From positions 1 to 56,973 of the forward strand of contig NZ_QKOE01000022.1 in assembly GCF_003226565.1 (NCBI RefSeq): a DNA stretch of 56,973 bases, written 5' to 3'. The DNA is from Parazoarcus communis SWub3 = DSM 12120 (GTDB lineage Bacteria > Pseudomonadota > Gammaproteobacteria > Burkholderiales > Rhodocyclaceae). The notes beneath the pieces are model-generated. The model worked only from the letters and a program-made list of their open reading frames with translations, was not told the origin of the DNA and made no database searches. A program made the translations under genes and the position numbers. Shown piece after piece: positions 3,346-43,864 of the stretch; the first letter of the stretch is position 1; every line of letters begins with the position of its first letter.

Positions 3346-3350
3346 GTGGC

Positions 3351-4061
3351 TCAGCCTTCAGTGTCTTCGGGATCTTCGTCGGGCAGGTGGTCTGCCAGAT
3401 CGAATGCATTGGCGTGCGGTAGCGAGTGACCAGCTTCGGTCAGGACGTCGGCCAGTGTGCCGTGGATGATGCGGTCGGCCAGCATGCGGTAATCGAGGGC
3501 GACGTCGAGCAGCGGTCCTTCCAGGATCACGCCATTGCGTCGCTCGATGAAACCCAGGCGGGCGAGCTTGCCAAGCATGAAGTTGCGCACCTTGGTCTTG
3601 CCGCCGAGGCGTCCGCCAAAATCGGCAATCAGTGAGGCCTCTGACAGTCCGGCGGAGACACTGTCGCCATGTGCGACCGGCTTGTCGGTACCAAACAGGT
3701 CGGCCTGACCATCATCATCGAGTTCGCGGCGGGTGACCTGGCGTTCGCGTTTGGGTAACACGATCAGTGCCCAGACGATGATCAGCAGCGCGATCTCGTC
3801 ACGGGTCAGGCCTAGATTGCTGGCTGCGTATTCACGGCTGGCGCCAAAGACCGGTTCATGCATGTCGGCCGCCAGACCGACGGCGACATGCGCAGCATAA
3901 GGGTTGTCGAGCAGACGCAGGCCGACTGCGCCCAGGCGACGGTCCAGGTCCTGGCGGAAGGTCTCGTCCACCAGGGCTCGCCGCACCAGACGATCATTAC
4001 GTGGTAGCCAGCGATGGTTGATCAGGCGGGCGGTCAGGGTTTGCAGTTCGTGTTCCATCAT
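3351..4061 (-). CDS. MukE/MksE/JetB-like condensin subunit
   Basis: This 236-residue protein starts at ATG 4061, overlapping the stop of the kleisin-like gene by ATGA, and ends 5 bases before the SMC gene. It has no enzymatic motif. Its size, acidic C-terminus (LPDEDPEDTEG) and position between a kleisin-like gene and an SMC gene fit the winged-helix MukE/MksE family, which binds the kleisin and stabilises the SMC complex. The assignment rests mainly on context and length. A second start (Met at 4058) is adjacent and cannot be excluded. Confidence 0.65.
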   Translation of the reverse strand: MMEHELQTLTARLINHRWLPRNDRLVRRALVDETFRQDLDRRLGAVGLRLLDNPYAAHVAVGLAADMHEPVFGASREYAASNLGLTRDEIALLIIVWALIVLPKRERQVTRRELDDDGQADLFGTDKPVAHGDSVSAGLSEASLIADFGGRLGGKTKVRNFMLGKLARLGFIERRNGVILEGPLLDVALDYRMLADRIIHGTLADVLTEAGHSLPHANAFDLADHLPDEDPEDTEG

Positions 4062-5347: not shown

Positions 5348-5477
5348 GGAATGCGAGACCGGGCCTGCGCGCGGCAGGTCCGCGGCAGGGCTCGGCGCTG
5401 TTCAGTGAATCAACGGCGCGGGTCGATGACTTGGCTGGATGTCTCACCCGCGTCCGCCGCGATCCGGGCACCAGGGC

Positions 5478-6582
5478 TCAGACGCCCTGTTTGAGACTGG
5501 CTGCGATGAAGTCGTCAAGGTCGCCATCGAGCACCGCCTGGGTATTGCCAACCTCGTAGTTGGTGCGCAAGTCCTTGATGCGAGACTGGTCGAGCACATA
5601 AGAGCGGATCTGGTGCCCCCAGCCGATGTCGCTCTTGGTGTCTTCCAGCTTCTGCTGTTCAGCCTGCCGTTTGCGCAGCTCGAGTTCGTACAGCCGTGCC
5701 TTCAGCATCGACATGGCCTCGGCCTTGTTCTTGTGCTGTGAGCGGTCGTTCTGGCACTGCACCACCGTATTGGTGGGTACGTGGGTGATCCGCACCGCAG
5801 AGTCGGTCTTGTTGATGTGCTGCCCACCGGCGCCGGACGCGCGGTAGGTGTCGATGCGCAGGTCGGCCGGGTTGATCTCGATCTCGATCGAATCATCCAC
5901 TTCCGGAAACACGAACACCGAGGTGAAACTGGTGTGGCGGCGGGCGTTGGAGTCGAAGGGCGACTTGCGGACCAGCCGATGGATGCCGGTTTCGGTGCGC
6001 AGGTAGCCGTAGGCATACTCGCCGCTGACCTTGATCGTGCAGTTCTTGATGCCGGCCACTTCACCTTCGGTCTCTTCCATCAGCTCGACGGTGAAGCCTT
6101 TTTTCTCGGCGTAGCGCAGATACATGCGTTCCAGCATGCCGGCCCAATCCTGGGCTTCGGTACCACCGGCACCGGCCTGGATTTCGATGAAGCAGGCATT
6201 CGGATCCATCGGATTGCTGAACATGCGGCGGAACTCGAGTTTCTCCACCGCGCCGGCCAGCTCGCCCAGGTCGGTTTCGACCGCCTCGAAAGTGTCATCA
6301 TCTTCCTCGGCTTCAGCGAGGTCGAATAGATCCTTCAGATCGGTGGATTGCTGCTCGATGTTCTGCAGCGTCAGCACGACTTCTTCGAGCTGGCGCTTCT
6401 CCTTGCCGAGTTCCTGGGCGCGTTCGGCGTTGTTCCAGACCGACGGGTCTTCCAGGGCGAGATTGACTTCTTCGAGCTTCGATGCTTTCACATCGTAGTC
6501 AAAGATACCTCCGGAGTTCGCGACCGCGGGCGGCGAGGTCGGCGAGTTTTTCGGCGATGGCGTTCTTGCGTTCGGCTTCCAT
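5478..6582 (-). CDS. prfB: Peptide chain release factor 2 (programmed +1 frameshift)
   Basis: RF2 releases nascent protein at UGA and UAA. The frame begins at ATG 6582 ([16 protein letters not shown]), runs 27 codons to an in-frame TGA at 6501-6499, and continues in the +1 frame from GAC (6500-6498) to the stop at 5478, giving 367 residues. The codon-recognition tripeptide SPF (in [13 protein letters not shown]) and the peptidyl-hydrolysis motif GGQ (in [11 protein letters not shown]) are present. The CTT-TGA-C slip site behind an internal Shine-Dalgarno matches the known RF2 autoregulatory frameshift. It is transcribed in the same direction as the condensin genes downstream. Confidence 0.96.
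6498..6516 (-). promoter_or_regulatory. prfB programmed frameshift element
   Basis: On the minus strand the sequence reads CTCCGGAGGTATCTTTGAC. GGAGG acts as an internal Shine-Dalgarno, CTT is the slippery codon and TGA the stop that is bypassed when RF2 is scarce. Both the spacing and the CTTTGAC core match the conserved element of bacterial prfB. Confidence 0.93.
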
Positions 6583-6782
6583 GTACGGCTCCGGGGATAA
6601 TGCGGAAAACCGGGCATTATACCTGCTGGATGAGGGTCTGCCGCGTTTCCCAAACCAGGGCGAAGGCATCGCAGGCGCCCGACGGTCTCGTCGTGACGCG
6701 CACTCCGGATGGCGCATGACGCGGATGGGCGTCACGGGCGTGGCAGCGTTAAACTGATCGGGACGAAGCTCTCAATGACCCG

Positions 6783-7181
6783 ATGTCCATGGACCTCACG
6801 ACGCCCGCCCTGCTGTTCCCCGCCATTTCGCTGCTATTGCTTGCCTATACCAACCGCTTTCTGACCCTGGCGCAGGTCATCCGTCAGTTGCACGCTTCGC
6901 CGGAGCATGGCAGCGGGGTGGTGATGAGGCAGATTCCGGGTTTGAAACGGCGCATCCAGTTGATCCAGTACATGCAGAGTTTCGGCGTGCTCAGCTTCTT
7001 GCTGTGTGCCCTGTCGATGCTGGCCTTGTTCCTGCATGGCGAGGCGGCAGGTCAGGCGCTGTTCGGCGCCAGCATCATCGCGCTGGCGGTTTCCCTGGTG
7101 TTGTCGCTGGTAGAGGTGTTGATCTCCACCAACGCCTTGTCCATCGTGGTTGAGGACCTGGAGCGCACTGGCAAGTCGTAG
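6783..7181 (+). CDS. DUF2721-family membrane protein
   Basis: A 132-residue protein with three predicted membrane segments: PALLFPAISLLLLAY near residue 9, a middle segment around FGVLSFLLCALSMLALFL, and LFGASIIALAVSLVLSLVEV. The order and the C-terminal tail (VVEDLERTGKS) match the uncharacterised DUF2721 family, whose role is unknown. It is divergent from prfB and convergent with codA, 18 bases away. A second start two codons in is possible. Confidence 0.75.
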   Translation: MSMDLTTPALLFPAISLLLLAYTNRFLTLAQVIRQLHASPEHGSGVVMRQIPGLKRRIQLIQYMQSFGVLSFLLCALSMLALFLHGEAAGQALFGASIIALAVSLVLSLVEVLISTNALSIVVEDLERTGKS

Positions 7182-7199
7182 CCCTGTGTGGTGCATGGG

Positions 7200-8477
7200 T
7201 CAGCGTGCCAGCCGCCAGTCCAGCTGCGCTGGTCGGCCTGGCAGGTTCAAGGTAGCGCTTGCCGGCGGGCTGTGTGCGATCACCTTGCCCGCACGCCAGA
7301 CGCGCAGCCGGGTCGCGCCAAGGCGTATTGCCTCCACCGGATCGGTGGCCTGCAGCAGCACCAGATCGGCCTTGCATCCCGGGGCGATGCCATAACCCTC
7401 CAGGCCCAGGATGCTGGCGGGTGTGCTGGTAACGGCATCGAAGCACTGGCGCATCGCGGCCTGCCCGGTCATTTGCGCCACATGCAGACCCATGCGTGCG
7501 ACTTCGAGCATGTCGCCGCTGCCCAGCGGATACCACGGGTCCATCACGCAGTCGTGGCCGAAGGCCACCGGCACGCCGGCGGCCAGTAGTTCCGGCACCC
7601 GGGTCATGCCACGACGTTTGGGGTAGCTGTCGTGGCGGCCCTGCAGGGTGATGTTGATCAGCGGGTTGGCCACCGCGGCGACACCGGCTTCGCGGATCAG
7701 CGGGATCAGCTTCGAGACGTAATAGTTGTCCATCGAATGCATCGAGGTCAGATGCGAGCCTGTCACCCGGCCATGCAGGCCGAGACGCTGGGCGTGAAAG
7801 GCCAGCGTCTCGATATGGCGGGACAGCGGGTCGTCGCTCTCGTCGCAATGCATGTCCACCCGCAGACCACGTGCAGCGGCCAGTTCGCAGAGGATGCGCA
7901 CCGATTCTGCGCCGTCGTTCATGGTGCGCTCGAAATGAGGAATGCCGCCGACAACCTCCACACCCAGGTCGAGCGCACGTTTCAGCTTGTCGAGCGCGCC
8001 AGGGCTGCGCAGTACGCCGTCCTGGGGGAAGGCCACCAGTTGCAGCTCGAGCCAGGGGGCGACCCGTCGTTTGACTTCGAGCAGCGCCTCGACGGCGAGC
8101 AGGCGCGGATCGCACACATCCACATGCGAACGGATTGCCAGTAGACCGCGTGCAACAGCCCAGTCGCAATAGGCCATGGCACGCTCGATGACCGCCTCCT
8201 GGGTGAGGTGGGGCTTGAGTTCGCCCCACAGCGCGATACCTTCCAGCAAGGTGCCTGATTGGTTGACCCGCGGCAGGCCGTAGGACAGTGTCGAATCCAT
8301 GTGGAAATGGGCGTCGACAAAAGGCGGGCTGAGGAGTTGGCCTGCGGCGTCGAAGTCCTCGGCGGCCTCTGCCTGAAGGGCGGGTTCGACTGCAACGATG
8401 CGGCCTTCGGTGATACCGACGTCGATATTGACGCGGCCATCGGGCAGATTGGCATTGCGGACGATCAGGTCGAGCAT
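7200..8477 (-). CDS. codA: Cytosine deaminase (amidohydrolase)
   Basis: The 425-residue protein fits CodA, which deaminates cytosine to uracil and ammonia. Metal-binding motifs of the amidohydrolase barrel are visible: FVDAHFHMD near residue 60, RVDMHCDESDD in the middle, HLTSMHSM and the C-terminal FGHDCVMDPW with the catalytic aspartate. Start 8477 was chosen because it gives [14 protein letters not shown], the normal N-terminus; it overlaps the end of rutR by 13 bases. As the last gene of the urc operon it would feed uracil into the pathway encoded upstream. Confidence 0.9.
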   Translation of the reverse strand: MLDLIVRNANLPDGRVNIDVGITEGRIVAVEPALQAEAAEDFDAAGQLLSPPFVDAHFHMDSTLSYGLPRVNQSGTLLEGIALWGELKPHLTQEAVIERAMAYCDWAVARGLLAIRSHVDVCDPRLLAVEALLEVKRRVAPWLELQLVAFPQDGVLRSPGALDKLKRALDLGVEVVGGIPHFERTMNDGAESVRILCELAAARGLRVDMHCDESDDPLSRHIETLAFHAQRLGLHGRVTGSHLTSMHSMDNYYVSKLIPLIREAGVAAVANPLINITLQGRHDSYPKRRGMTRVPELLAAGVPVAFGHDCVMDPWYPLGSGDMLEVARMGLHVAQMTGQAAMRQCFDAVTSTPASILGLEGYGIAPGCKADLVLLQATDPVEAIRLGATRLRVWRAGKVIAHSPPASATLNLPGRPAQLDWRLAR

Positions 8478-9178
8478 GTGTGGCGAGCTTCCGGGAGCGT
8501 GGGTGGGACGTCTGTTCGGGGCCAGGGCAGGCCGCACGTGCGCATGACGACGGTCAGTACGTGGTCGGTGGCCCGGACATGGTCGGCCACTGTCTGGCGG
8601 GCCTTGCCGAGTACCGCACAGATCTGGCTGTCGAAGTCGGCATAGGTCTGGGTGGCCGCCCATAGGGTGAAGAACAGATGGGTGCCGTCCACCGGAGCGA
8701 TGCGGCCGTCTGCCACCCATCTGGCAATGACATCGGCGCGGTCACGGACCAACTCACGCAACTCGCTTCGCAGGAAGTAGCCGATGTGCCCCGCGCCGTG
8801 CAGGATCTCGTTGGCGAACACGCGCGACGCATCGGGTCGTTCGGCGCTGAGGCGCATCTTTGCACGCACGTAGTGTTCCAGTGCCGCCGCCGGGTCGGCA
8901 TCGACAGTCAGCGTGTCGGTTTCGGCGAGCCAAAGGGCCAGGATGTTGTCCAGAACGGCACGGTAAAGCGCCTCTTTCGAGCTGAAATAGTAATGTAGCG
9001 TGGGTTTGGGTACGCCGGCAGTCTCCGCAATTTCATTCAGGGTCGCACCTTGGTAGCCGGCCCGGGCAAAGACTTTTTCTGCCGCCTTCAGGATGGCGCC
9101 TTCCTGGCGTTGACGGATGCGGCCCTTGGCGGCAGGCCTGTCGCCAAGGGATTTATCGATGATCGCGCGCAGGCTCAT
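8465..9178 (-). CDS. rutR: TetR-family regulator, RutR-like
   Basis: A 237-residue TetR-type repressor. The helix-turn-helix lies near residues 30-70 ([19 protein letters not shown], then [19 protein letters not shown]). The N-terminal HTH and the C-terminal region resemble RutR, which in Escherichia coli senses uracil and controls pyrimidine catabolism. Its ATG overlaps the stop of upp by ATGA. It sits inside the operon it probably controls, with a RutR-like palindrome ahead of urc1. The C-terminus carries an extra tail beyond the usual RutR length. Confidence 0.8.
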
Positions 9179-9807
9179 CGTGTGCCGAACAATCGGTCGC
9201 CTGCATCGCCCAGGCCTGGCACGATGTAGCCATGATCATTCAGGTGGCTGTCCACCGCGCCCGCCAGGATGGGGACTTCAGGATGGTGTTCGGCCAGCGT
9301 CGAGATGCCCTCGGGGGCCGCCAGCAGGCAAACAAATTTCAGACTGGTGACGCCATCTTCCTTGAGTCTGGACAGCGCGGCCGATGCCGAATTGCCCGTG
9401 GCCAGCATCGGGTCGACGACGATGACCAGACGTTCGTCAATGTCCTCGGGCACCTTGTAGTAGTACTCCACCGCCTGCAGTGTGTGCGGATCGCGATACA
9501 GGCCGATGTGACCGACACGGGCGCCGGGCAGCAACTCGATCATGCCGTCGATCATGCCGTTACCCGCACGCATGATGGACACCAGGCACAGTTTCTTGCC
9601 GGCAATCACCGGCGCCTGGCATTCGGTGACGGGCGTGGTCACGGTGATCATTTCGGTGGGCAGGTCGCGGGTCACTTCGTAGGCCATCATCGCGGCGATC
9701 TCGCGCACGACGCGGCGGAAGTTGTCGGTGGTGGTCTCGGCGTTGCGCAACAGCGTGAGCTTGTGCTTCAGCAGGGGATGATCGACTTCGGTCAGGTTCA
9801 GGTGCAT
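9175..9807 (-). CDS. upp: Uracil phosphoribosyltransferase
   Basis: UPRT converts uracil and PRPP to UMP. The 210-residue protein has the expected [13 protein letters not shown] segment, the PRPP-binding motif [14 protein letters not shown] and the C-terminal uracil-binding [10 protein letters not shown]. Usual length is about 208. It is 26 bases after urc4 and overlaps rutR by four bases. In the yeast URC pathway, uracil must first be made into a nucleotide by a UPRT, so its place here supports a degradative rather than only a salvage role. Confidence 0.95.
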
Positions 9808-9833
9808 GGCGGCCTCCCTTGGTGCATGATCGA

Positions 9834-11098
9834 TCAGAAAACCGTGCCATCGCTGACGATGCGCAACGGTGGAAGTCCGCCAGAGCGCAACTGCGCGGCG
9901 ATGCGGCGACCGGCGGACCAGGTGCCACCCTGCAGTACCTTGGGCAGGCTGAAGCTGGCAGCATCGACACCCAGCACCTCGCGCACCGCGTTGGCGAGGC
10001 GGTCGAGACCGATCACCGTCAGCGCCCGCCATTCGACGATGGGCGGGGAATCCACCTGCCATTCCGTGGTGAAGAAGGCGGGGCTGCGCGGGCGGATGAC
10101 GCCGGTATCGAGCAACAGGCCGCCGTTACGATACTCGGGCAGGCCAGTCAGGCGGTCGATGCCGGCAACTTGCAGGCCGGCGTCCTCAAGGGGTTCCAGC
10201 AGCGAATAGCACAGCCACTGAGTCAGCTTGTGGAAGGGCAGCAAACCATCGTCCAGTGCAGGGTGGGGCCAGCAGTCCCCCAGCGACACCCCCTCAAGGC
10301 TGATGCGGCCGGGCCACACCGGGCCGAAGGCGCGCAGCAGGGTGTCGAGGACGAATTCGGCCTGGATCACGCCCGAGCTGGCATGGTTCACCAGATAGTC
10401 GGCCAGGTTTCCAAGCCGGGCTGGCGAGCCAAACACCCGTGGTGTGGCCGCCATCACCTCACCGAGGCGGCGCAGCAGGCTGGTGCGGCCCTGCAGCCCA
10501 ACCAGTGGATTGCGCTCACTGACCTGGAAGACCTCGGCCAACATGCTGGTCGCAAGGGCAGAAAGGGCACTCGCGTCGCTGCGTAGCGGGTGGCTCGGGT
10601 CGGCAGAAAGGGCGCCACTTTCGAACAGCGCCAGGCTGGCAAGCGCAAGGCCTTCCGAGCGGCCATGGGTCTGGCCACTGCGCTGCTCGGTATAGTGCCA
10701 GTCAGGGCCCGCGCCTGCGTCGAGCAGCACGCTGGGTACGACCAGATCAATGGCCACGCGGGCGCGTTCCAGCGGATCGCTTACATCGATGTGCGTGCTC
10801 AGTGCTTGCCAGCGGTCGATACCACCGGCTTCGAAGTGACGCCAGCGGCTGTGGTAGGGCACGTCCAGATCAGGGTAATCATGACGGATGGTTTCAGCGA
10901 CGTAGGCCGCTGCAGTGGGAAGCGCCGCGTCGTTCCACTGAAAGAAAGACGAGCGACCGTTCTCCACCGCTGCCATCACCACTGCACAGCGTTCGCGCAC
11001 TGCACGGGCGCTGAGCAAGCTGGCAGCGGGATGACCGGTTGGTACCGGGGTATGCCAGCCGGTGGCGGTTTGCATTTCGGCGGCAAATGAAGCGGGGT

Positions 11099-11102
<4 letters not shown>
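9834..11102 (-). CDS. URC4/Urg3-family protein (DUF1688), uracil catabolism
   Basis: A 422-residue protein recognised as the URC4 (DUF1688) family by the N-terminal [20 protein letters not shown] type start, the central [13 protein letters not shown] and the conserved [13 protein letters not shown] near residue 320. URC4 is required in yeast for the second uracil degradation route (via ribosylurea); its biochemical step is not firmly known. The start overlaps the urc1 stop by ATGA. Adjacency to urc1 and upp is the diagnostic arrangement. Confidence 0.85.
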
Positions 11103-12340
<1,238 letters not shown>

Positions 12341-12369
12341 GACGGACTCCTTGCGCTGTCGATCGGAAC

Positions 12370-12385
12370 CTGACTGTTTGGTCAG
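12370..12385. promoter_or_regulatory. RutR-like operator before urc1
   Basis: CTGACTGTTTGGTCAG is a 16-bp palindrome (arms CTGAC/GTCAG) placed 30 bases upstream of the urc1 start. The right half TGGTCA equals the half-site of the Escherichia coli RutR box TTGACCA-NN-TGGTCAA, while the left half matches at four of seven positions. Its position and the rutR gene in the operon make it the likely control site. Confidence 0.6.
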
Positions 12386-12543
12386 ATTCCGTCAAGCGAG
12401 TTTCATGCCATGGGTTTGAGCGCGAAATAGGGGCTTTCCCACCCCCGGGGCGCACTGCATTCGTGCTCGGTCAAGTGTTTCGGTTTCCGCAGGCCCGAAC
12501 TTGGTGCCTGCGCGGGGGCCGCCACTGCCAGGCCCGACAGGGT

Positions 12544-12903
12544 TCAGGCTGAGCCGTCGTTACGCAGCCGCTTCCGTGCCGTCAGCAGCGACATCATCAC
12601 GGTGGGGATGGAGATCACGGCAAACAGCGCCAAGCCCAGCGGCGCCAGGCTGAGGTCCGAGATCGAAACGAGCATCAGCAAGGCCTGAGCCTGCACGATG
12701 GCCAGCCCCCAGCGCCACGCACGCTGGGGTGCAAAGTGACCGACTGCACCCGCAATCAGGATGGCGAGCGGGTAGCTGATCACCCAGTAGACCTGCGCAT
12801 CCCAGGCTTCCTGGGCACCTGTCAGCACGCCGGTGATGACCCACAGCAAGGTACCGCTACCGATTGCGGCGGTGTAGGCCTGGGTATCGGACCAGGTTTT
12901 CAT
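12544..12903 (-). CDS. Small four-segment membrane protein, unknown
   Basis: This 119-residue protein has four hydrophobic segments (AIGSGTLLWVITGVL, VYWVISYPLAILIAGAV, a third around LAIVQAQALLMLVS, and LAPLGLALFAVISIPTVMM) and a basic tail. The start at 12903 is favoured over longer frames because AGGAG lies 5-9 bases upstream. No family is recognised. It stands alone between the urc1 promoter region and the motor-like operon. Confidence 0.6.
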   Translation of the reverse strand: MKTWSDTQAYTAAIGSGTLLWVITGVLTGAQEAWDAQVYWVISYPLAILIAGAVGHFAPQRAWRWGLAIVQAQALLMLVSISDLSLAPLGLALFAVISIPTVMMSLLTARKRLRNDGSA

Positions 12904-13005
12904 CGGGGGCTCCTGAATAAGGGGACAGCGCGTTGGTTTGCCACTTGAAAAATGTGGAACGGCTGCAAGTTTGACGGATTTGAGGTGTGGACCCAAGCGC
13001 GGTGC

Positions 13006-13764
13006 TCAGGCCGGTTTGCGACGGGCCGGTTTGCGTTTGCCACGGGTGGCCGGCTTCTGCGTTGCGTGAAGGTCGAGCTGGTCGAGCCAGAGCAGGGTAT
13101 CCGCGTAGCTCAGAAAGCGTTCGACGTAGGCGGGCGACAGTTGCTGCAACTGAGTCAGGGCTTGCAGCACCAGATGATGCGCATTGAGCGGGCCCGCGTT
13201 GTCGGGTGCCTGTGCCATTGCCCGGGTAAGCTGGCGATCGGTATCGAGGCGTGACCAGGTCCGGCGAAAGTAGCGTACTGCCTTCAGCTCTGTCCGTGCC
13301 GTGTCCTCATGGGCCACGTTGTCAGAGGCGTAGGGTGTGCGGACCGGTACGGCCTGACCGATATGGGCAAGCAGATCGGCAAGCGTGCGGACGGGGGCTC
13401 GTCTGTGCAGGGCATCGAGGTTGCGGTGCACAGCAGCAAAATCTCCGGTGTCGAGCAGTGCGTTCAGTTGCGCGCGGGTGGTGGTGGCAAGTTCGGCTTC
13501 GGCTGCGATGCGGGTGATGGCCTGCTGCCGGGCATGCTCCAGGCGCTCACGGTAGGCGTCGATGCGCGTCGCCAGCCGGCGGGTCAGCAGGCGCTGGCTT
13601 GCCTCGCTGCGCCCCTGGGTTCGACGCGACATCGCCTCGAGCAGGCGCAGGCCGACTGGATCGAAGCGCTCGGCGCCACGCGCGCGCAAGTCGGCAAAGG
13701 CATCGGGCTGTGGCGCTGTCTGCCCGTCCGACGTCATCGGACCGTCGCTGTCGACTTCAGCCAT
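13006..13764 (-). CDS. DUF2894-family protein
   Basis: A 252-residue soluble protein, rich in Ala, Arg and Leu. A helical core (residues about 30-210) contains VGLRLLEAMSRR and a segment ending AYVERFLSYADTLLWLDQL, and the tail is strongly basic (TRGKRKPARRKPA). It matches the uncharacterised DUF2894 family, found in Betaproteobacteria next to the DUF802/OmpA pair. The start 13764 overlaps the stop of the OmpA-like gene by eight bases. The basic tail might bind nucleic acid or membrane phosphates, but this is a guess. Confidence 0.7.
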   Translation of the reverse strand: MAEVDSDGPMTSDGQTAPQPDAFADLRARGAERFDPVGLRLLEAMSRRTQGRSEASQRLLTRRLATRIDAYRERLEHARQQAITRIAAEAELATTTRAQLNALLDTGDFAAVHRNLDALHRRAPVRTLADLLAHIGQAVPVRTPYASDNVAHEDTARTELKAVRYFRRTWSRLDTDRQLTRAMAQAPDNAGPLNAHHLVLQALTQLQQLSPAYVERFLSYADTLLWLDQLDLHATQKPATRGKRKPARRKPA

Positions 13765-14401
13765 GGGGCGCAGCTGCCTGCCTGGCGGTACGGGGAACGG
13801 GGGCCATTTCCACACGGCGGTTGCGGGCACGTCCCTCCTCGTCAGCATTGGGCGCAACGGGTTGTTCGGCCCCGAACGCGGCTGCAAAGACCGAGGCGGA
13901 AGGAATGCCGGCCTCGATCAGGGCGCGGGTCACGGTCAGCGCGCGTTGGGCGGACAGCTCCCAGTTATCGGCAAACTGACGGTTGTTGTCCCGGATCGGC
14001 CGGTCGTCGGTAAAGCCGCTGACCATCAGGATCTCGTCACGGCCTTCCAGATAAGTGGTCAGCGGCTGTGCCAGACTGTTCAGCAACTGCCGGCCCTCGG
14101 GCTGCAGGGCGTCGGAGTTCAACGCAAACAGCACGCTGCCGCTGATGCCGATGCGTCCGCCGTCCAGTGTCACCCGGCCAGCTGCCAGCGGGGCGGCAAG
14201 GGCGTCTTCGAGAGCGATGCGGCGCTGTTCCTCTGCCTGGCGCTTGTTGATTTCGGCCTCCAGGCTGGAGGCCAGCTCAAGCTGAAACCCCAGCACGCCG
14301 ACTAGAATCAGCACGAACGCACCCAGCAGGCCGGACATCAGGTCGCCGAACACCGCCCATGCCGGGGCCGAATGTTCGAGGCCGGCGTCGGTTTCTTCCA
14401 T
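13757..14401 (-). CDS. MotB/ZorB-like OmpA-domain protein
   Basis: This 214-residue protein has one N-terminal membrane segment with the motif AVFGDLMSGLLGAFVLIL, whose aspartate lies where MotB and ZorB carry the ion-binding Asp. An OmpA-type peptidoglycan-binding domain follows (VLFALNSDALQPEGRQLL to RARNRRVEMAPVP). With the upstream MotA-like protein it would form a stator-type ion-driven unit anchored to the cell wall. ATG 14401 is chosen, preceded by GAGG; an alternative TTG at 14407 would overlap the upstream stop by four bases. Confidence 0.8.
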   Translation of the reverse strand: MEETDAGLEHSAPAWAVFGDLMSGLLGAFVLILVGVLGFQLELASSLEAEINKRQAEEQRRIALEDALAAPLAAGRVTLDGGRIGISGSVLFALNSDALQPEGRQLLNSLAQPLTTYLEGRDEILMVSGFTDDRPIRDNNRQFADNWELSAQRALTVTRALIEAGIPSASVFAAAFGAEQPVAPNADEEGRARNRRVEMAPVPRTARQAAAPHG

Positions 14402-14403
14402 GA

Positions 14404-16614
14404 TCAAACCTCGTCGGCCAGCGCAGCAGGCCGGTTCTTGATTTGTTGCAGATCATCGACGATGCGTTGTTGCGACATCATGCTCAGGTCGATGATTTCA
14501 CGCGCCTGTGCAACGTAGTACGCCATCTGCTCGTCGCTGCGGTTCAGGGACTTGTCCAGCGCCTCTTCGATGCGCTGAAGGTTGCCGGCCAGCTGCGCGC
14601 TTGCCGTGCCAAACTGCTCCACCGCGGCTGACATCGCCTCGCCCAGGCTGGCGACTTCGACTGCGCTTCCGTCCAGCTGGCTGGCAAGTTCGCCCATGCG
14701 ACTGGCCTCGGCATCGACACGGGTTTGCAATGTGTTGGTGGTGCGCTCCAGCAAATCCGCCGCCGTACCCACCAGCGCGTCAATGGCGGCGCGTTGTTCG
14801 GTGGCGGCATGATTGATGGCATCGAGCAGCCCTCCCATGGTTTCCATGATGCGGCTGCGCTCGACTAGCATCTCATTGTCGCGCGCGATGCTGGCCGACA
14901 GTTCCTGTCGCAGCTGGATGATGACGTCGGCTGCGGCGCGCGGTGCCTCGGCCGCGGTCTGCATCAGTTGGGAGACCTGGGAAAGGGTGGCCGCCGTCTG
15001 GGCTTCGGTGTGGGTGGCGATGCGCTGTGCGGTTTCCTCCAGCTTGCTGCAGATGCGGTTCTGCTCTGCGCTGGCATGGCTTGCGGCATCCTGCCAGGAT
15101 TGCTGCGCGGCGGTGGTCATCGCGTCCAGCGCGGCCTGTTGGGTGGCGAGCCGGAGGTCGTCCCGGCTGGCCAGTCCGGCTTGCAGGCTCTGGGCCTGTT
15201 CATGCAGTGTGTTCGCCAGTCGTGCGCTTTGCTCGGCAAACGCGTTGGTCACGTGGGTCAGCGTCGCCTCCAGGCGTTCGCCCAGCTGGCTGTTGGTCAG
15301 CGTCTGCTGGCTGGCAGCGGCCTGCCAGGCTTGCGCGGCCTGCTGCGCGCCGGCATCGACGCGCTTGCCCAGCGCATCGAGCTGGGTCTCGATCGCCGCA
15401 ATCAGCTGTTGTTGCTGCTTGCCCGTCTCGCGCGCCAGGCCCGTGGTGCGCTCGGCAAGCTGTCTGCACAGATCGGTGTGGTTGTGACCAATGGACTCGA
15501 GGAATGTGGATGCATCCTGCTCGAGCTTCCGGGCATGGGCATCGAGGGTATGCTGCAACTGGCGGACGAGTTCCGTGCTGCCCTGGGTGTGCGCATCGAC
15601 GGCCGTCGTCCAGCGAGCGCTGACCTGGCTGATGCTGTCGTCGAAGCGGGCGCTGACCCCATTCAGGTGCCGGGTGACGGTGTCGGCAACCTGGCTCTGC
15701 AGTGCAGTGGTCTCTGCTGCAATTGCGCGCATGGTGGCCTCGACGGCCGGTTGCAGGGCTTCCCCCGCCAGGCGGGCGCTGGCTGACAGGCTGTCCTTCA
15801 GCGACTGATCCACCGCAGCCGCCAGCCCGGTGTAGCTGGCGCGTGCTTCGTCATGGAACTGTGCCTGCGCCGCGGCAAGCTGGGTGGCCGATTGCTCGCT
15901 GCGCTGGTTCAACTGGTCCATCATCGATTGCAGGGCATCCACCAGCCGCGGCAGCACCTCTGCTTGCCCCTGCAGCGCCCTGAACGTCTGTTGACGCTGG
16001 TGGGTCAGCGAGAACTCGCGCAGCGTGGTGGCGATGCGCGCCTCGAGTTGTTGCGCCGCCTGCAGGCGGGCTCGGCGGCACAGTACCGACATCAGCCCCA
16101 ACATGGCCGATGCAGCCACCCCGGCAATCGAGGTGCCAAACGCCACACCCAGCCCCTTCACCGGGGCTGCGAGTGCGCTGCGGATGGCCTGCAGATCGGT
16201 GGTGTGCTCGAGTGCCACAAAGGCACCGTTGAGCGTCAGCACCATGCCGAGAAAGGTGCCCAGCATGCCGAGCAGTACCAGCAGGCCTACCAGGTAAGGG
16301 GTCAGCACTGGCGCAGGCAGGCCAGTACGTTCGCCCTCGATGCGTAGCCGTACCGGGTTCTGCAGGCTGGGCGGTAGCTGTGCCAGCCAGCCGCCCAGTT
16401 CGGCGGGTGGCGAGGAGAGCGTATTCAGGGTCTGCCTGAGTGAGCGGGTCGCGCGATCAAAGCTCAGCAGCTCCAGCGCGCCGGCCAGATAGGCGGCGGC
16501 GATGATCAAGGTGACGCCCAGCGCGACCGGGCTGTGGCCGATGTAGCCGGCTGCGGTCCAGCACACGACGGCGAGGCCGGCGGCAAAGGCCGCCATGGTT
16601 AAAGGTCGGTTCAT
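14404..16614 (-). CDS. DUF802 protein: MotA/ZorA-like membrane core with long helical tail
   Basis: The 736-residue protein has two N-terminal membrane helices, then a MotA/ExbB-like pair (LVGLLVLLGMLGTFLGMVL and GVAFGTSIAGVAASAMLGL, about residues 110-190). About 540 residues of alanine/glutamine-rich helix and coiled coil follow. This matches the uncharacterised DUF802 family and closely resembles the architecture of ZorA, the proton-channel subunit of the Zorya defence motor, whose tail projects into the cytoplasm. Its start overlaps the DUF3348 stop by ATGA. Homology to ZorA is inferred from architecture and motifs, not from an alignment. Confidence 0.75.
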   Translation of the reverse strand: MNRPLTMAAFAAGLAVVCWTAAGYIGHSPVALGVTLIIAAAYLAGALELLSFDRATRSLRQTLNTLSSPPAELGGWLAQLPPSLQNPVRLRIEGERTGLPAPVLTPYLVGLLVLLGMLGTFLGMVLTLNGAFVALEHTTDLQAIRSALAAPVKGLGVAFGTSIAGVAASAMLGLMSVLCRRARLQAAQQLEARIATTLREFSLTHQRQQTFRALQGQAEVLPRLVDALQSMMDQLNQRSEQSATQLAAAQAQFHDEARASYTGLAAAVDQSLKDSLSASARLAGEALQPAVEATMRAIAAETTALQSQVADTVTRHLNGVSARFDDSISQVSARWTTAVDAHTQGSTELVRQLQHTLDAHARKLEQDASTFLESIGHNHTDLCRQLAERTTGLARETGKQQQQLIAAIETQLDALGKRVDAGAQQAAQAWQAAASQQTLTNSQLGERLEATLTHVTNAFAEQSARLANTLHEQAQSLQAGLASRDDLRLATQQAALDAMTTAAQQSWQDAASHASAEQNRICSKLEETAQRIATHTEAQTAATLSQVSQLMQTAAEAPRAAADVIIQLRQELSASIARDNEMLVERSRIMETMGGLLDAINHAATEQRAAIDALVGTAADLLERTTNTLQTRVDAEASRMGELASQLDGSAVEVASLGEAMSAAVEQFGTASAQLAGNLQRIEEALDKSLNRSDEQMAYYVAQAREIIDLSMMSQQRIVDDLQQIKNRPAALADEV

Positions 16615-33823: not shown

Positions 33824-34150
33824 TCAGCCTGCATACACGACCTCGGCACTGCGAACGACACTTTCCCTGAAATGGCGAGATAGGTCTGCTGCAGTGCGCA
33901 AGTCGACTTTGCATCCCATCAAGCCGGAAAGCTCGATCTCAAGCCCGGAGATGCCCAGCAAGCCGGGGATGTGTCCCTGCTCGAACTCAACCAGGAGATC
34001 GATATCGCTGTCGGGTCGGGCCGTGCCCTTCAAGCGTGAGCCGAATAGCGCAAGGCGGCGGATGTGATGCTGTCGGCAGAATCCGGCAAGCGTTTCGGCA
34101 TCGGGCGAAAGATTGCGTGCCATTGACTTTGTACCGTGAAGGGTCGTCAT
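33824..34150 (-). CDS. MNT-type nucleotidyltransferase, orphan
   Basis: This 108-residue protein has the minimal nucleotidyltransferase motif [22 protein letters not shown] (GSx9-10DxD form). Such proteins usually act as antitoxins that AMPylate a HEPN partner (MntA-HepT). No HEPN gene lies beside it: the neighbours are an esterase and a lipid-cluster gene. It is thus an orphan or has another target. A start at 34123 ([12 protein letters not shown]) is also possible. Confidence 0.8.
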
Positions 34151-34181: not shown

Positions 34182-35072
34182 TCAGCCCTTTGGGAGCGGG
34201 GCGCCAGCCTGGGCCGCCTTCATCCGCATCAGCAGCGCATGCAGCATCTCGGTTGACAGCCCGTGCAGGACCAGACGGTAACCGGCGCGCAAGGTGCTCA
34301 TGGGGACCAGTGGGTGCTTGTTGTTGAGCAGGATCAGGTGCTGGGGGGCGCCCAGGATGGTGGCTGCGTAGATGCCGATGGTTTCATCGAGCTGCAATGA
34401 GTTGGTGGCGCGCCAGAAGTCGTTATCGGTGAGAAACAGCTGGTAGATCGGGGTGAAGCACTCGATTGCGGTCTGCAGGTCCATGAAGTTGAGTGCCTTG
34501 TCCGGCATGGCGTCAAGCCGGACTGCGGGCTCGGTGATCATGCTGAAGTCGGGCTCGGAGACGGTTTCCAGCTGCCGGCCGTGGTCGCGCAGTGCCTGGT
34601 TCAGGCGGATGACGAAGTTGAACAGGTTCAGATCATGTTTGAGAAACAGTTCGTCCTTCAGTTCGTCGAGTGCCACCGGGGTGATTGGGCTGGTCTCGAC
34701 CGGGATGGGCGAGTTGCGTGCGATGAATTCCAGAATCTGTGCGCCCAGCGTGAAGTGGCGCAGCACCAGCCAGTTGGCCTCCGGCGAGACAAAGCGTTTC
34801 ATGCTTTCGGCCAGTAGGTAATGCAGCGCGCGCGAGGCTGCCCAGCGTTTGGGCAGTAGCAGCTTGACGATCTGGATCAGCACGATCAGCGTGCGTGCCA
34901 GCGGGCGGACGAAAGGCAGCACAAACTGTCGTGAGCGCGAGCTGGAGTCCTTCAGCCAGGCGGCTTTCACGGTGTCGTCCAGCGGCGTGCTCTGGTCGAG
35001 GTAGAGCGCCAGCCAGGGGCTGGGGTCGCGTGGGTCGTGGGGGTGGGTCAGAAAATCGGGCGCGGGCTTCAT
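34182..35072 (-). CDS. Unknown protein, last gene of the KAS/desaturase operon
   Basis: The 296-residue protein shows no recognised family. It has a central hydrophobic stretch (ARTLIVLIQIVKLLLP, about residues 60-75), then a mostly helical remainder with charged clusters (DELKDELFLKHDLNLFNFVI) and a C-terminal block around HLILLNNKHPLVPMSTLR. It overlaps the upstream fusion gene by ATGA, so it should act in the same pathway, possibly as a membrane-associated accessory protein or a final tailoring enzyme. Confidence 0.6.
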   Translation of the reverse strand: MKPAPDFLTHPHDPRDPSPWLALYLDQSTPLDDTVKAAWLKDSSSRSRQFVLPFVRPLARTLIVLIQIVKLLLPKRWAASRALHYLLAESMKRFVSPEANWLVLRHFTLGAQILEFIARNSPIPVETSPITPVALDELKDELFLKHDLNLFNFVIRLNQALRDHGRQLETVSEPDFSMITEPAVRLDAMPDKALNFMDLQTAIECFTPIYQLFLTDNDFWRATNSLQLDETIGIYAATILGAPQHLILLNNKHPLVPMSTLRAGYRLVLHGLSTEMLHALLMRMKAAQAGAPLPKG

Positions 35073-36961
35073 GCGTCGGTGTCCAGGATGTGATGGAACT
35101 GCATCAGGTAGAGCTGGGCGGTACGGCGCGCAGTGCCCAGGATGTGGCGTACCGCGTCGGGTTCGACGGCGATGGCCAGCGTGACCGCATCAAGCCAGCG
35201 TTGCAGGTGATGCTGGTCGTTGGTGCCGTGGTACTCCAGAAAGCGGAAGGCTGTCGGTGGCAGTGCAAGCTGGCGACGCAGCAAGGGCAGCAGGGCCGGA
35301 ACGATGCGCTGACCGGTGCCTTCGATAATGTAGATTGCACCCAGCAGGCCCAGCGGGTTGGGGCCGGCGGCCAGCGCGTGCAGGTAGGCGTTGAGTGCCT
35401 CGCCGCCAGGGTTGCGGCGCAGCGCGTCCAGTGCTTCGGTGCCGCCAGCGGCCAGATAGTCTTCATACAGGATGGTGAAGTCGCGTTGTTCTTCACCGGC
35501 ATGGGTTTCGATCAGCGCACCCAAGGCGGCAAAGGGCGCATTCAGTGAGGCGACGGCTTCGCGCATCCATGTGCTGCCCTCGCGCACTTGCGGTACCCAT
35601 TGCGCGGTCCAGTTGCGGTAGTCGTCGATGGTGAAGCGGCCATCGACCAGTTTGTGGACGACCGGCGTGCGCCAGACCTCCGACCGATAGTCGTGCCAGA
35701 TGCCGGCAAGATGGGTCAGCAGGTGGCTGAGGTGTGCGGGGGCATCGTCGGCGGTATGAGGTGGCGGCGGGAGTTCGGTGTCCAGCGTGGATCGCGACGG
35801 TGAATGCACTGTGCGGGAGGGCGGCGCTCCGGGGGCATCGGCGGCTTCGACTTCCAGCAGCATGTAGGCGGCACTGATGCGGCCGGATTCGGGAATGAAG
35901 CAGAAGATCTTCTGCCCGGGGCGCAGCGTGTGGGTGTCGAGAAACTCTGCCAGCATGATGTAGATCGACGCGGCCCCGGTGTTTCCACGGGTCGCAAGAT
36001 TGCTGTACCAGCGCTCGCGCGGAATGCTCAGCCCCGCCTTGTCGAGCAGTTCCTCCACCACCGGGATGAAGCGGGCCGATGAGTAGTGGCACAGGAAGTG
36101 ATCGATGTCGGCGGAGTTTATCCAGCCCTCGCGTACCAGCTTGACGTATTCGTGGATCGAAACGTCGAATAGATGAGGCAGCAGGCGGATGTCCTGTCGG
36201 ATGGCGAGCGCCCCGTCGGCCTCGGCTGCCGAAGATGAGGGGTAATCGAGAAAGGACTGGCTGCGGTCGGCCGACAGTCCAAGCTGCATGCATACCGGAT
36301 AGTCGCCGGCAAAGCTCTGCTGATGCACCCACTTCAGCTTGAGGCGCAGGCCCTTGCTTGCACTCGGCTGGCGGGTCAGTAGCAAGGCCCCGGCGCCGTC
36401 AGACAGCATCCAGCGCAGGAAGTGGGCGTCGAAGTCGGCATCGTAGCCACGCGGGGCAAAACGGCTGCGTTTGAACATGCGCGACGGCATTTCGGCTGCC
36501 GCTGCAATGGCGTGTTGGTGCCCGCCCAGTTCGACTGCCTGCGCCGCGTGTTTGATGGCCATGACCCCGGCCGCGCAGATGCCCTGGCTGGAGAGGGTTT
36601 CCATGGGGGGCGCCCCGAGCTCGCCGTGAATCATGCTGGCAAAGCCGGGCATCAGTGCATCGCCACCAGAGGAGCCGACCGCCAGCAGACCTGCCTCATC
36701 CAGACGGATGTCGGTGCGCCCCAGGCAGTCCTCAATCGCGTTGGCGGCCAGGCGGGCGTGCGACATCGTGGTGTTGCCCTCGGTGTCGATCGCGTAGTGG
36801 CGCTGCAGGATGCCGTTCTCGGCCAGGATGCGCGCCTTGATCCGCGAAGAGAGGCGGTTGAGCGGCGCGATGTAGGCGTCCATCTCGTCGTTGCCGATCG
36901 CTGGGCCCGGCAGATGGAAGCCAGCGGCCTCGACATAGACGTGGTCGAAACGGGTAGGCAT
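35069..36961 (-). CDS. Beta-ketoacyl synthase III fused to a haem-oxygenase-like domain
   Basis: The 630-residue protein has two domains. Residues 1-365 are KAS III-like, with the triad Cys129 (SSQGICAAG), His292 (FLCHYSSARF) and Asn337 (TRGNTGAASI). A Pro-rich linker (about 367-405) leads to a helical haem-oxygenase-like (TenA/iron-containing redox) domain, residues 405-630. Candidate metal ligands there are Glu485, His487, Glu490, Glu547 (IYIIEGTGQ), Asp582 and His585. The first half would condense or transfer acyl chains and the second could oxidise or cleave the product. It is flanked in the same operon by two membrane diiron-type enzymes. A rare fusion. Confidence 0.75.
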   Translation of the reverse strand: MPTRFDHVYVEAAGFHLPGPAIGNDEMDAYIAPLNRLSSRIKARILAENGILQRHYAIDTEGNTTMSHARLAANAIEDCLGRTDIRLDEAGLLAVGSSGGDALMPGFASMIHGELGAPPMETLSSQGICAAGVMAIKHAAQAVELGGHQHAIAAAAEMPSRMFKRSRFAPRGYDADFDAHFLRWMLSDGAGALLLTRQPSASKGLRLKLKWVHQQSFAGDYPVCMQLGLSADRSQSFLDYPSSSAAEADGALAIRQDIRLLPHLFDVSIHEYVKLVREGWINSADIDHFLCHYSSARFIPVVEELLDKAGLSIPRERWYSNLATRGNTGAASIYIMLAEFLDTHTLRPGQKIFCFIPESGRISAAYMLLEVEAADAPGAPPSRTVHSPSRSTLDTELPPPPHTADDAPAHLSHLLTHLAGIWHDYRSEVWRTPVVHKLVDGRFTIDDYRNWTAQWVPQVREGSTWMREAVASLNAPFAALGALIETHAGEEQRDFTILYEDYLAAGGTEALDALRRNPGGEALNAYLHALAAGPNPLGLLGAIYIIEGTGQRIVPALLPLLRRQLALPPTAFRFLEYHGTNDQHHLQRWLDAVTLAIAVEPDAVRHILGTARRTAQLYLMQFHHILDTDA

Positions 36962-37851
36962 CAGGGGTTCTCCGAAGCGTGGACGGGGGCACGGGGCGCG
37001 CCGCTTGCCGGGCTCATCAGGCTGCGGCTACGCAAGCGCGGCACGAATGCTGCAAGCAGGAAGGTGCGGAACATGTAAGGCAACAGGCCACCCGCATTCA
37101 GGCGCGGATCAACGCGTTCGCGGTAGTGGCGATGCAGCGTGGTCAGCTTCGACCAGTGTGCTTTTGGGTGCGCATGGTGGGCGGTGTGCAGGCCGATGTT
37201 GAACAGCAGCGGATTCACCCAGCCTTCGAAATTGCGCGCATGGTTGATGGAAGAGTGGCCATCGGCATGGGCGTGCTGCAGGTAGTTGGTGGCGAGCAGC
37301 CAGTGCAGGCCATGCAACTGCGGCAACAGCACCAGCAATAGCCAGTTCTGTAGGTCGATGGCGGCCGTCAGGGCCCAGAGCATCAGCACCGCCGCGTACT
37401 GCCACAGTGCATAACGCCATGCGCCAGAACCGCGTCGGCGCTGAGCCAGCAGCCAGCGGAGGAATACGGGGTAGAGCACCGTCACCGCCTGCAGAGGATG
37501 AATCAGATAGCCCCACAGTGAATTGGTGTCGCCATTGAAACGATAGGTGCGGGCGACATCAAGCGGGCCGTGACGGTAGCGGTGGTGATTGGCGATGTGA
37601 GCCGGATAGAACACATAGGTCGGATGGCCCTGCAGCAGCGTCAGCCACAGGTCGGTCAGGCGGTTCAGCCGCTTGCTGCGCCACATCCTGCGGTGAGTGT
37701 GGTTGTGATGGATGACGCCGGTGCCCAGGGTCAGGAACAGCATCAGCGCATACAGTGGCAGCCAGATGCCGTGCATCCATTGCCAGACGACCAGTGCCGG
37801 CAAGGCCAGCATGTAGGCCAGGCTTTGCAGGTCGCGGCGTTCAAGCAACAT
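36961..37851 (-). CDS. Membrane fatty-acid desaturase
   Basis: The 296-residue protein is a membrane-bound diiron desaturase-like enzyme, with histidine boxes HHNHTH, HIANHH and HTAHHAH at about residues 48, 85 and 220, separated by membrane helices. It probably introduces double bonds, or a related oxidation, into an acyl chain. ATG 37851 overlaps the hydroxylase stop by 11 bases, and its own stop TGATG overlaps the KAS III fusion start by one base. Confidence 0.8.
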   Translation of the reverse strand: MLLERRDLQSLAYMLALPALVVWQWMHGIWLPLYALMLFLTLGTGVIHHNHTHRRMWRSKRLNRLTDLWLTLLQGHPTYVFYPAHIANHHRYRHGPLDVARTYRFNGDTNSLWGYLIHPLQAVTVLYPVFLRWLLAQRRRGSGAWRYALWQYAAVLMLWALTAAIDLQNWLLLVLLPQLHGLHWLLATNYLQHAHADGHSSINHARNFEGWVNPLLFNIGLHTAHHAHPKAHWSKLTTLHRHYRERVDPRLNAGGLLPYMFRTFLLAAFVPRLRSRSLMSPASGAPRAPVHASENP

Positions 37852-38638
37852 GGCGGCCCCGCCGGTCCGGGGTACGCGCCAGATCACGTGCAATCCGCTC
37901 GGCCGCGGCTTGAGGCGGCAGCGCGGTACCGAACAGGCGGTCCATGAACGGGAACATGAAGCCGTAGTTGCCGTGGAAGCAGGCGTGATGCAGATGATGC
38001 CGGCGGGCACCGTTCAGCCACCAGCGGTCGTGGTGGGCGTCGGGCAAAAAGTCGTAGTTGGAGTGGCCGATGCAGTTGAACAGCAGGCTGAACAAGGGCG
38101 CCGCCAGCAGTGCGGCAAAGCTGAAGTCATGAACCACCATGGGCAGCAGGATGATGTTGCCCAGCATCGCCGCCTCGACCGGATGAAAGCTGTAGGTTGC
38201 CCAGGGTGTGGTGACGATGGAGCGGTGGTGGGGCAGGTGAAAGCGGCGCAGCCATCGGGTGTGCAGCAGCCAGTGATTGGCATAGAAGTGGATCTCGTTC
38301 CAGATCACCAGCGCAAGAATCTCCAGCACGATGCGCCACCCTGGGGGATCGACCGCCAGCCGCGCCCAGCCCAACTGCAGCAAACCCCAGGGAAACACCA
38401 TGCCGGCACCGAACAGCAGCACCGACGAGGCCGATAGCAGCAATTCGCGCCGCAACTGCCCTTGTGGCACCGGACGTGGATCGAGTCGCCCGCCGTGCCC
38501 CAGGCGTGGCAGCACATGCCGCGTGAGCAGCCAGGTCAGCGCACCAAAACTCAGGTAGATGAAGCCGAAGAACAGCCATCCACCCAGGATGATCTCGTAC
38601 CAGCGGGATTCGAGCAGGAAGGCTTGCATGCGTGTCAC
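37841..38638 (-). CDS. Fatty-acid hydroxylase / sterol-desaturase superfamily protein
   Basis: This 265-residue protein has four or more membrane helices and the histidine clusters of the superfamily: HFYANHWLLH, FHLPHHRS and HHLHHACFHGNYG. These bind a diiron centre that hydroxylates or desaturates lipids. It is first of four overlapping genes. The GTG start at 38638 has AGGG six bases upstream; ATG 38629 is the alternative. A 12-bp palindrome GTCACGCGTGAC (38634-38645) overlaps the start region. Confidence 0.82.
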   Translation of the reverse strand: MTRMQAFLLESRWYEIILGGWLFFGFIYLSFGALTWLLTRHVLPRLGHGGRLDPRPVPQGQLRRELLLSASSVLLFGAGMVFPWGLLQLGWARLAVDPPGWRIVLEILALVIWNEIHFYANHWLLHTRWLRRFHLPHHRSIVTTPWATYSFHPVEAAMLGNIILLPMVVHDFSFAALLAAPLFSLLFNCIGHSNYDFLPDAHHDRWWLNGARRHHLHHACFHGNYGFMFPFMDRLFGTALPPQAAAERIARDLARTPDRRGRHVA

Positions 38639-41624: not shown

Positions 41625-42967
<1,343 letters not shown>

Positions 42968-43864
42968 ATGAAAGACGTCAAGGTCCCGATCTACAAGCTT
43001 TATGGCGAGCAGGCACTGTGGCCTACGCCAGAGCCGGTTCACTACGAGACCATTGCAGCTCGTAGCGCGCTGTACGATTGGGAAATCACACCGCATAGCC
43101 ATGACAGCCTGCTGCACCTGGTTTTCCTCAACGCTGGGCAGGCCGAGATGGTGCTCGAGACGCAGGTCATGGCACTCGAGCTGCCCTGTGCGTTGATGGT
43201 GCCGCCACGGCGCATCCACGGTTTCCGCTTCTCGTCGGATGTGGTCGGAGAGATTGTGACCCTGCCGCAGAACCTGCTTGGCGAGCTGTTTGTGCTGTCC
43301 GCCGAGTTACGGGGAGCATTCGATGGCTTCCGCTATCTGCCGCTGGGCAGGCAGGCGGATGCGCTGGCGTTGATGCGCCTGCATTTCGGGCAGTTCGCGC
43401 GCGAATACGCCGGTCATCAGCCCGGTCGGCTCAGCGTGTTGATGGCCGTATTGGCGCAGGTGCTGGTGCAACTGGCGCGGGCGGGCGCCATCAGTACCGA
43501 TATGGGGCCGCGCAATCGCATGCATGGCCGGGTGGAGCGCTTCGTCGAACTGATCGAGCGCCATTTCCGCGACTGGCAGCCGCTGTCCTTCTACGCGCAG
43601 CGGCTTGGCGTCTCCACTGCGCAACTCAACAACAGCTGCCGGCGCGAGGCTGGACGCAGCGCACAGGAGATGATCCACGACCGCCTGTTGCTGGAGGCGC
43701 GTCGTTTGCTGGCCTACTCGGATCTGGATGTGACCGGTATTGGCTATGCGCTGGGGTTTCGCGATCCGGCCTACTTCTCCCGCTTCTTTGCGCGCAGACA
43801 GGGGGTGTCGCCGTCGGTGTTCCGGCTGGAGCAGGCCGAGCGACAGCGGCAGCCTGCGTCCTGA
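42968..43864 (+). CDS. pobR: AraC-family activator of pobA
   Basis: A 298-residue AraC-type activator. The N-terminal sensor half is of the PobR kind (VHYETIAARSALYDWEITPH), and the C-terminal HTH pair is FYAQRLGVSTAQLNNSCRRE and VTGIGYALGFRDPAYFSRFF. Divergent placement next to pobA is the standard PobR context. ATG 42968 is preferred over GTG 42941, because the former gives the more usual MKDVKVP start. Confidence 0.88.
   Translation: MKDVKVPIYKLYGEQALWPTPEPVHYETIAARSALYDWEITPHSHDSLLHLVFLNAGQAEMVLETQVMALELPCALMVPPRRIHGFRFSSDVVGEIVTLPQNLLGELFVLSAELRGAFDGFRYLPLGRQADALALMRLHFGQFAREYAGHQPGRLSVLMAVLAQVLVQLARAGAISTDMGPRNRMHGRVERFVELIERHFRDWQPLSFYAQRLGVSTAQLNNSCRREAGRSAQEMIHDRLLLEARRLLAYSDLDVTGIGYALGFRDPAYFSRFFARRQGVSPSVFRLEQAERQRQPAS

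Follow-up and report, generated by a model that had tools for sequence, protein, structure and literature searches.

What would a cell make with a ketosynthase (KS) that is joined, in one polypeptide, to a haem-oxygenase-like (HO) domain? The question is raised by a four-gene operon of Parazoarcus communis SWub3 = DSM 12120, which lies in a 56,973-nucleotide stretch of DNA (contig NZ_QKOE01000022.1, positions 1 to 56,973) that we analyzed as a whole and call the window. The open reading frames (ORFs), all on the minus strand, encode in transcription order a membrane hydroxylase, a membrane desaturase, the KS–HO fusion and a protein of the DUF6999 family. The hydroxylase and desaturase genes overlap by 11 bases (37841–37851), the desaturase and fusion genes by 1 base (36961), and the fusion and DUF6999 genes by 4 bases (35069–35072), and because of these overlaps we suggest that the four genes form one translationally coupled operon. 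An earlier note on this DNA, made from its letters alone, had placed four overlapping genes at these same coordinates, and in this it was correct. We find that the operon is real and widespread, and that its function is undescribed in open-licence PubMed Central text, where a search without supplements gave no paper on the KS–HO fusion or on DUF6999 among the matches listed. What would be new is a version of the DarB-type pathway in which an HO-like oxidase takes the place of the flavodoxin-like aromatase.

A widespread four-gene operon

Scanning the contigs of 84,980 species with a DUF6999 profile yielded 501 confirmed loci, from which we kept the best 80 (a sample skewed towards Variovorax, with 28 loci, and Achromobacter, with 27) and called genes in the retrieved loci with a simple ORF script. 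The order hydroxylase–desaturase–KS–HO–DUF6999, on one strand and with KS and HO fused, was found at 75 of these best 80 of 501 loci, in support of the idea of the earlier note that the genes act as one unit. Elsewhere among the 80, two short contigs bore only KS–HO and DUF6999 (L078 and L113), the desaturase was not detected at one locus (L111), and two Variovorax loci held only the hydroxylase and DUF6999 (L077 and L082). The KS–HO fusion of these two Variovorax genomes lies at another site, directly behind the desaturase; the operon is there broken into two pairs with all four genes retained. The closest named relative that we found was in an Azoarcus metagenome-assembled genome (L037), with 85–91% identity over the hydroxylase, desaturase, KS, HO and DUF6999. 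No gene other than those of the operon was shared by more than six of 17 diverse loci, and conserved acyl carrier protein (ACP) or transporter neighbors were not seen at the operon loci.

Within the window's order, DUF6999 was present in 13 of 250 genomes. An HO profile, built partly from three of those 13, matched 45 of the 250 at E 1e-10, of which only 13 reached at least 294 bits, and these were the identical set to the 13 genomes with DUF6999; the remaining HO matches scored below 98 bits. Thirteen genomes can be chosen from 250 in 1.7e21 ways (relatedness ignored), and the gene arrangement is far beyond chance. We regard it as almost certain that the four genes form one pathway.

Both membrane enzymes belong to their superfamilies as judged by a Pfam match plus conserved His boxes, the residues of which were kept in 97–100% of 79 aligned rows for the hydroxylase and in 99–100% of 67 for the desaturase, in line with the two membrane diiron-type enzymes that the earlier note had proposed; neither enzyme gave a useful match to PDB sequences. 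The hydroxylase may start at either GTG 38638 or ATG 38629. A promoter and terminator scan found nothing relevant to the operon beyond what shuffled sequences gave.

The ketosynthase and its probable oxidative partner

The N-terminal part of the fusion had been read as a ketoacyl-ACP synthase III (KAS III), an assignment that did not survive. The KS scored 346.1 bits with the StlD/DarB model NF005293 versus 59–77 bits with FabH models, and a plain FabH-type KAS III was therefore rejected. Pfam placed ACP_syn_III_C on the fusion above its cut-off (40 bits), and the N-terminal ACP_syn_III model at 19.2 bits, under its cut-off of 24. The nearest solved structure was StlD (PDB 5gk0/5gk2), both by sequence (E 2.8e-65, 224 bits, 37% identity) and by fold in a structure search with the fusion model (E 2.7e-27, TMt 0.78; model pLDDT 79.2, pTM 0.62, with a low-confidence linker near residues 380–400). 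In the alignment to StlD the triad Cys129/His292/Asn327 falls in the StlD positions, and it was invariant in 23 of 23 fusions; Cys129 and His292 had thus been correctly named, whereas the third residue is Asn327 and not the Asn337 first proposed. StlD differs in being a stand-alone enzyme with other partner chemistry. By sequence, this KS is related to StlD and DarB, which form rings, and is not an ordinary KAS III.

We built a KS tree from 43 sequences, among them 17 fused KSs, 17 canonical DarBs and 8 KSs with a separate HO gene; one DarB locus at a contig edge (L023) was excluded from both the tree and the DarA count below. The fused KSs formed one clade (support 100/100), as did the canonical DarBs (100/100). 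Seven of the eight KSs with a separate HO grouped with the fusions, at a fork of modest support (91/81), and the eighth, L137, grouped weakly with DarB (86/58); the deep order is unsure, with long branches leading to L137, L136, L134 and L133. On this tree the fusion appears as a single event.

The annotation of Azoarcus BH72 gives DarB as the dialkylresorcinol (DAR) cyclase and DarA as the DAR aromatase (PMC3949708). All 17 canonical DarB loci taken from the window's family, searched to about 1.5 kb on each side, had a DarA relative, versus none of 96 operon-type loci (80 + 16, among which L077, L082 and L135 have DUF6999 but lack a KS), searched to up to 8–10 kb. An HO partner was fused to or next to the KS at every operon-type locus with a KS. 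Because DarA is absent from the operon loci and HO is always beside the KS, we infer that HO would perform the oxidation, standing in for DarA. The operon thus shares with the DarAB/arcuflavin cluster (Azoarcus sp. BH72 azo0292–0293, PMC3949708) its wider KS family and its triad, but its KS lies in a separate clade and is accompanied by HO, DUF6999, a desaturase and a hydroxylase, with no DarA at the loci.

The KS–HO fusion is rare in the window's own family (4 of 150 genomes), and three of these four genomes have no other DarB-like match. Seven of eight further operon genomes tested likewise lack a second DarB-like KS, the exception being one V. paradoxus. Because most of the fusion genomes tested are without another DarB-like KS, the fusion does not depend on the canonical cluster. 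antiSMASH has reported 'resorcinol' clusters in all studied D. tsuruhatensis genomes, where they had no similarity to known clusters (PMC9045143), and in A. mucicolens, where DarB is the core gene and the paper gives 66% similarity to a spectinomycin cluster, which sounds unrelated (PMC9045304). In one genome of each species (strains that differ from those of the papers), the fusion was the only DarB-like match, and for this reason we think it probable that antiSMASH labeled this KS–HO operon as 'resorcinol' in Delftia and Achromobacter. The window's own genome also contains a locus (L036; G000:C220:132000-151900, positions 1280–15726) with a canonical DarB that passes the StlD/DarB cut-off of 450 (609.9 bits), DarH, a flavodoxin-like DarA and aryl-polyene-type genes, a set that resembles the arcuflavin-type pigment cluster of Azoarcus BH72.

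That an HO-like domain is joined to the KS, as the earlier note had claimed, is borne out by Haem_oxygenas_2 (PF14518), which scored 50 bits on the fusion versus a cut-off of 28.9 and matched 14 of 14 diverse HO members at E ≤ 1. Thirty columns were invariant in the 14 sequences, the His, Asp and Glu columns among them being H487, E491, D494, E521, E547, H578, D582 and H585, of which H487, E491, E547, H578, D582 and H585 were also invariant in 79 of 79 fusion rows. Position 461 was Glu in all 79 fusion rows and Asp in 3 of the 14 diverse sequences. The metal ligands first proposed were therefore right in part: His487, Glu547, Asp582 and His585 stood, Glu485 did not (Glu in just 13 of 79 fusion rows), nor did Glu490 (Glu in 74 and Asp in 5 fusion rows; Ala, Thr or Asp in stand-alone HOs), and Glu491, Asp494, His578 and position 461 had been omitted. 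The candidate metal ligands are thus H487, E491, (D494), E547, H578, D582 and H585, and possibly E461.

The motif of haem-oxygenase-like dimetal oxidases (HDOs) consists of E-H on helix 1, a variable residue, mostly Glu, on helix 2, and H-D/E-H on helix 3 (PMC11363339). E547 on helix 2 and H578-D582-H585 on helix 3 fit this motif, and together with the PF14518 domain they liken the window's HO to UndA, SznF and CADD, from which it differs in its rearranged helix 1 and its fusion to a KS; a word search of the text of the HDO review (PMC13108848) found no mention of a ketosynthase fusion. An extra Glu ligand occurs in some HDOs (PMC13108848), and our guess is that E461 is its counterpart. Among PDB sequences, the one that the HO profile matched best was 3dde, a TenA/THI-4 protein of unknown function (E 2.7e-15), which shares HxxxDxxH and the helix-2 Glu with the HO family, but has E-x-x-H where the family has E491-x-x-D494, the His of 3dde corresponding to Asp494. 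The earlier note had named the lack of an HO-like bundle or of metal ligands, and the lack of linkage among the four genes, as findings that would count against it; we encountered neither, the HO fold being read from sequence and from a model that is helical across the region.

Distant HO relatives are the only form in 32 of the 250 order genomes. In seven neighborhoods of such relatives (L183–L189) we saw adjoining genes that look like short-chain dehydrogenase/reductase, AMP-ligase and often thermostable-hemolysin-type genes, judged mostly by eye (Pfam was run on one HO and one T_hemolysin).

DUF6999 and a likely order of assembly

DUF6999 is a Pfam family to which no function has been assigned, and its name occurs in none of the papers searched. 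Its predicted model in the window (pLDDT 83.6, pTM 0.83) is almost all helix and matched no solved fold (best E 1.1), its profile matched no PDB sequence (best E 0.24), and a permissive Pfam scan yielded nothing further. Among 15 sequences, with identities as low as 22%, 14 residues were invariant; they include R105, H106, H146, D147, D198, N224, D229 and H270 and look like an active site that is perhaps metal-binding. We rejected the idea that DUF6999 is a distant HO-like protein, the fold matches to TenA, BesC and PolF all having E ≥ 1.1 and TM-scores ≤ 0.2, and profile comparison with HO giving a probability of 0.1. The residues H106...H146-D147...D198/D229 could be read as an HD-phosphohydrolase-like motif, but no fold match supports this idea and we set it aside.

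In alphaproteobacteria (L035, L129–L133), KS, HO and DUF6999 are encoded by three separate adjoining genes, with no local match to a desaturase or hydroxylase. Two loci from the window's class (L136 and L137) have a separate HO and a divergent DUF6999. At another locus, L134, the fusion and DUF6999 occur without either membrane enzyme in the vicinity, and its KS is a basal branch of the fusion group. On the simplest reading of these sequences, which is less sure at the deep forks, the core trio of KS, HO and DUF6999 would have come first, followed by one fusion and then by the membrane enzymes. DUF6999 counts as core because alphaproteobacteria keep all three as separate genes. The earlier note had suggested that the fourth protein may be an accessory or final tailoring enzyme; it appears instead to belong to the oldest core, and the desaturase and hydroxylase look like the later additions. 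In control searches the laboratory model Caulobacter vibrioides matched both DUF6999 and PF14518, and the unfused core may therefore be directly testable there.

Some loci showed other arrangements. At L035 (5697–9098) DUF6999 is followed by a major facilitator superfamily–acyltransferase–AMP-ligase fusion, and the related L132 has an RND-like ORF in that place. At L138 (about 1707–2370, genome G759) DUF6999 matched in three separate pieces, as if decayed or frameshifted. L135 (8889–10912) has DUF6999 without KS or HO, beside an ORF that by eye resembles an insertion-sequence transposase, possibly a disrupted operon.

Possible products and gene layout

We propose that the KS condenses two thioesters derived from fatty acyl chains, which most likely yields a 1,3-cyclohexanedione-type ring, and that the HO-like domain fused to it is an oxidase that depends on oxygen and probably holds two metals. 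This oxidase would act on the KS product by aromatization, ring oxygenation or oxidative decarboxylation, in the role that the flavodoxin-like aromatase DarA has in canonical DAR clusters. DUF6999, perhaps a metal-binding protein, would complete the core and work on that product too, and the membrane desaturase and hydroxylase, added in the fused lineage, would modify alkyl chains or ring substituents. The operon product is probably an oxidized ring-bearing lipid. Ring formation, the metal cofactor, the oxidation step, the role of DUF6999 and the product are all things that we infer, and the specific chemistry could fall either way. Taken as a whole, an oxidative lipid pathway with a ring-forming KS and with HO replacing DarA is the best explanation that we have, and we give it about an even chance. 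Several findings weigh against it: the KS score of 346.1 bits lies below the curated StlD/DarB cut-off of 450, and the reaction may differ; helix 1 of the HO is non-canonical (H487-x3-E491-x2-D494, with His before Glu); a fold search with the whole fusion returned only ketosynthases among the best 50 matches, which neither supports nor excludes an HO fold; the absence of DarA concerns the fetched loci only, DarA elsewhere in the operon genomes not having been searched; and a different contig of the window's genome bears canonical DarAB genes.

The rearranged helix 1, together with the sharing of the HO-like fold by TenA and PqqC, which have no metal (PMC11363339), leaves room for an HO domain that is metal-free or has a binding or structural role, with the membrane enzymes doing the oxidation. 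We hold this to be unlikely, given that all 14 diverse sequences and all 79 fusion rows have H487, E491, E547, H578, D582 and H585 and that alphaproteobacteria have KS and HO without a local desaturase or hydroxylase. Somewhat more doubtful is a pathway like that of OleA and UndA, in which the KS would condense chains head-to-head to a long beta-keto acid, HO would decarboxylate it oxidatively to a ketone or alkene, and the desaturase and hydroxylase would tailor the product. OleA structures are among the fold matches, and the HDO UndA decarboxylates fatty acids (PMC13108848), but StlD is far closer than OleA (224 versus 21 bits; fold E 2.7e-27 versus 5e-16), and the three PDB matches that the HO profile gave at E values up to 10 did not include UndA. 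Since this KS resembles StlD and DarB, which form rings, an UndA-type alkene, in line with one of the product types that the earlier note had suggested, is not the best reading. Least probable to us is an ordinary DAR cluster, as the antiSMASH label has it, with an aromatase encoded elsewhere or not needed. The KS does belong to the wider DarB family, and the D. tsuruhatensis and A. mucicolens clusters do carry that label; yet the KS falls outside the canonical DarB clade, the DarA counts and the general lack of a second DarB-like KS described above do not fit, and the Delftia cluster resembled no known cluster.

Returning to the oxidative ring pathway, its boldest form is a self-contained, oxygen-dependent ring synthase, in which one polypeptide closes the cyclohexanedione and a dimetal HO with rearranged ligands aromatizes or oxygenates it, DUF6999 is a new metalloenzyme fold, and the product is a new class of oxidized phenolic or quinone-like membrane lipids, kept in many Achromobacter and Variovorax species and made by unfused enzymes in alphaproteobacteria; this we put forward only tentatively. 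If the proposal is true, HDOs gain an oxidase that works in cis on a ketosynthase product, DUF6999 gets a pathway, and a common antiSMASH 'resorcinol' call is explained.

Table 1. Coordinates in the window of the operon genes and of the parts of the KS–HO fusion.
Feature	Position	Strand	Evidence
Membrane fatty-acid hydroxylase, first operon gene	37841..38638	-	FA_hydroxylase PF04116, 79.7 bits, cut-off 31
Membrane fatty-acid desaturase	36961..37851	-	FA_desaturase PF00487, 87 bits, cut-off 29.7
KS–HO fusion, 630 amino acids	35069..36961	-	Pfam and NF005293 scores, alignments, model
KS domain, residues 1–375, StlD/DarB-related, triad C129/H292/N327	35837..36961	-	Family models, fold, tree
Linker, about residues 376–405	35747..35836	-	Variable length; low confidence in model
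HO-like domain, residues 404–630, candidate metal ligands	35072..35752	-	Haem_oxygenas_2, alignments
DUF6999 protein, all-helical	34182..35072	-	PF22523, 433.4 bits, above cut-off

Two further features of the window lie outside the operon. A small NTP_transf_2 (minimal nucleotidyltransferase) gene on the same strand (33824–34150) starts 31 bases behind DUF6999. At 41625–43864 are a FAD_binding_3 monooxygenase gene (Pfam), the product of which by eye is like 4-hydroxybenzoate hydroxylase, and a divergent AraC-like regulator gene.

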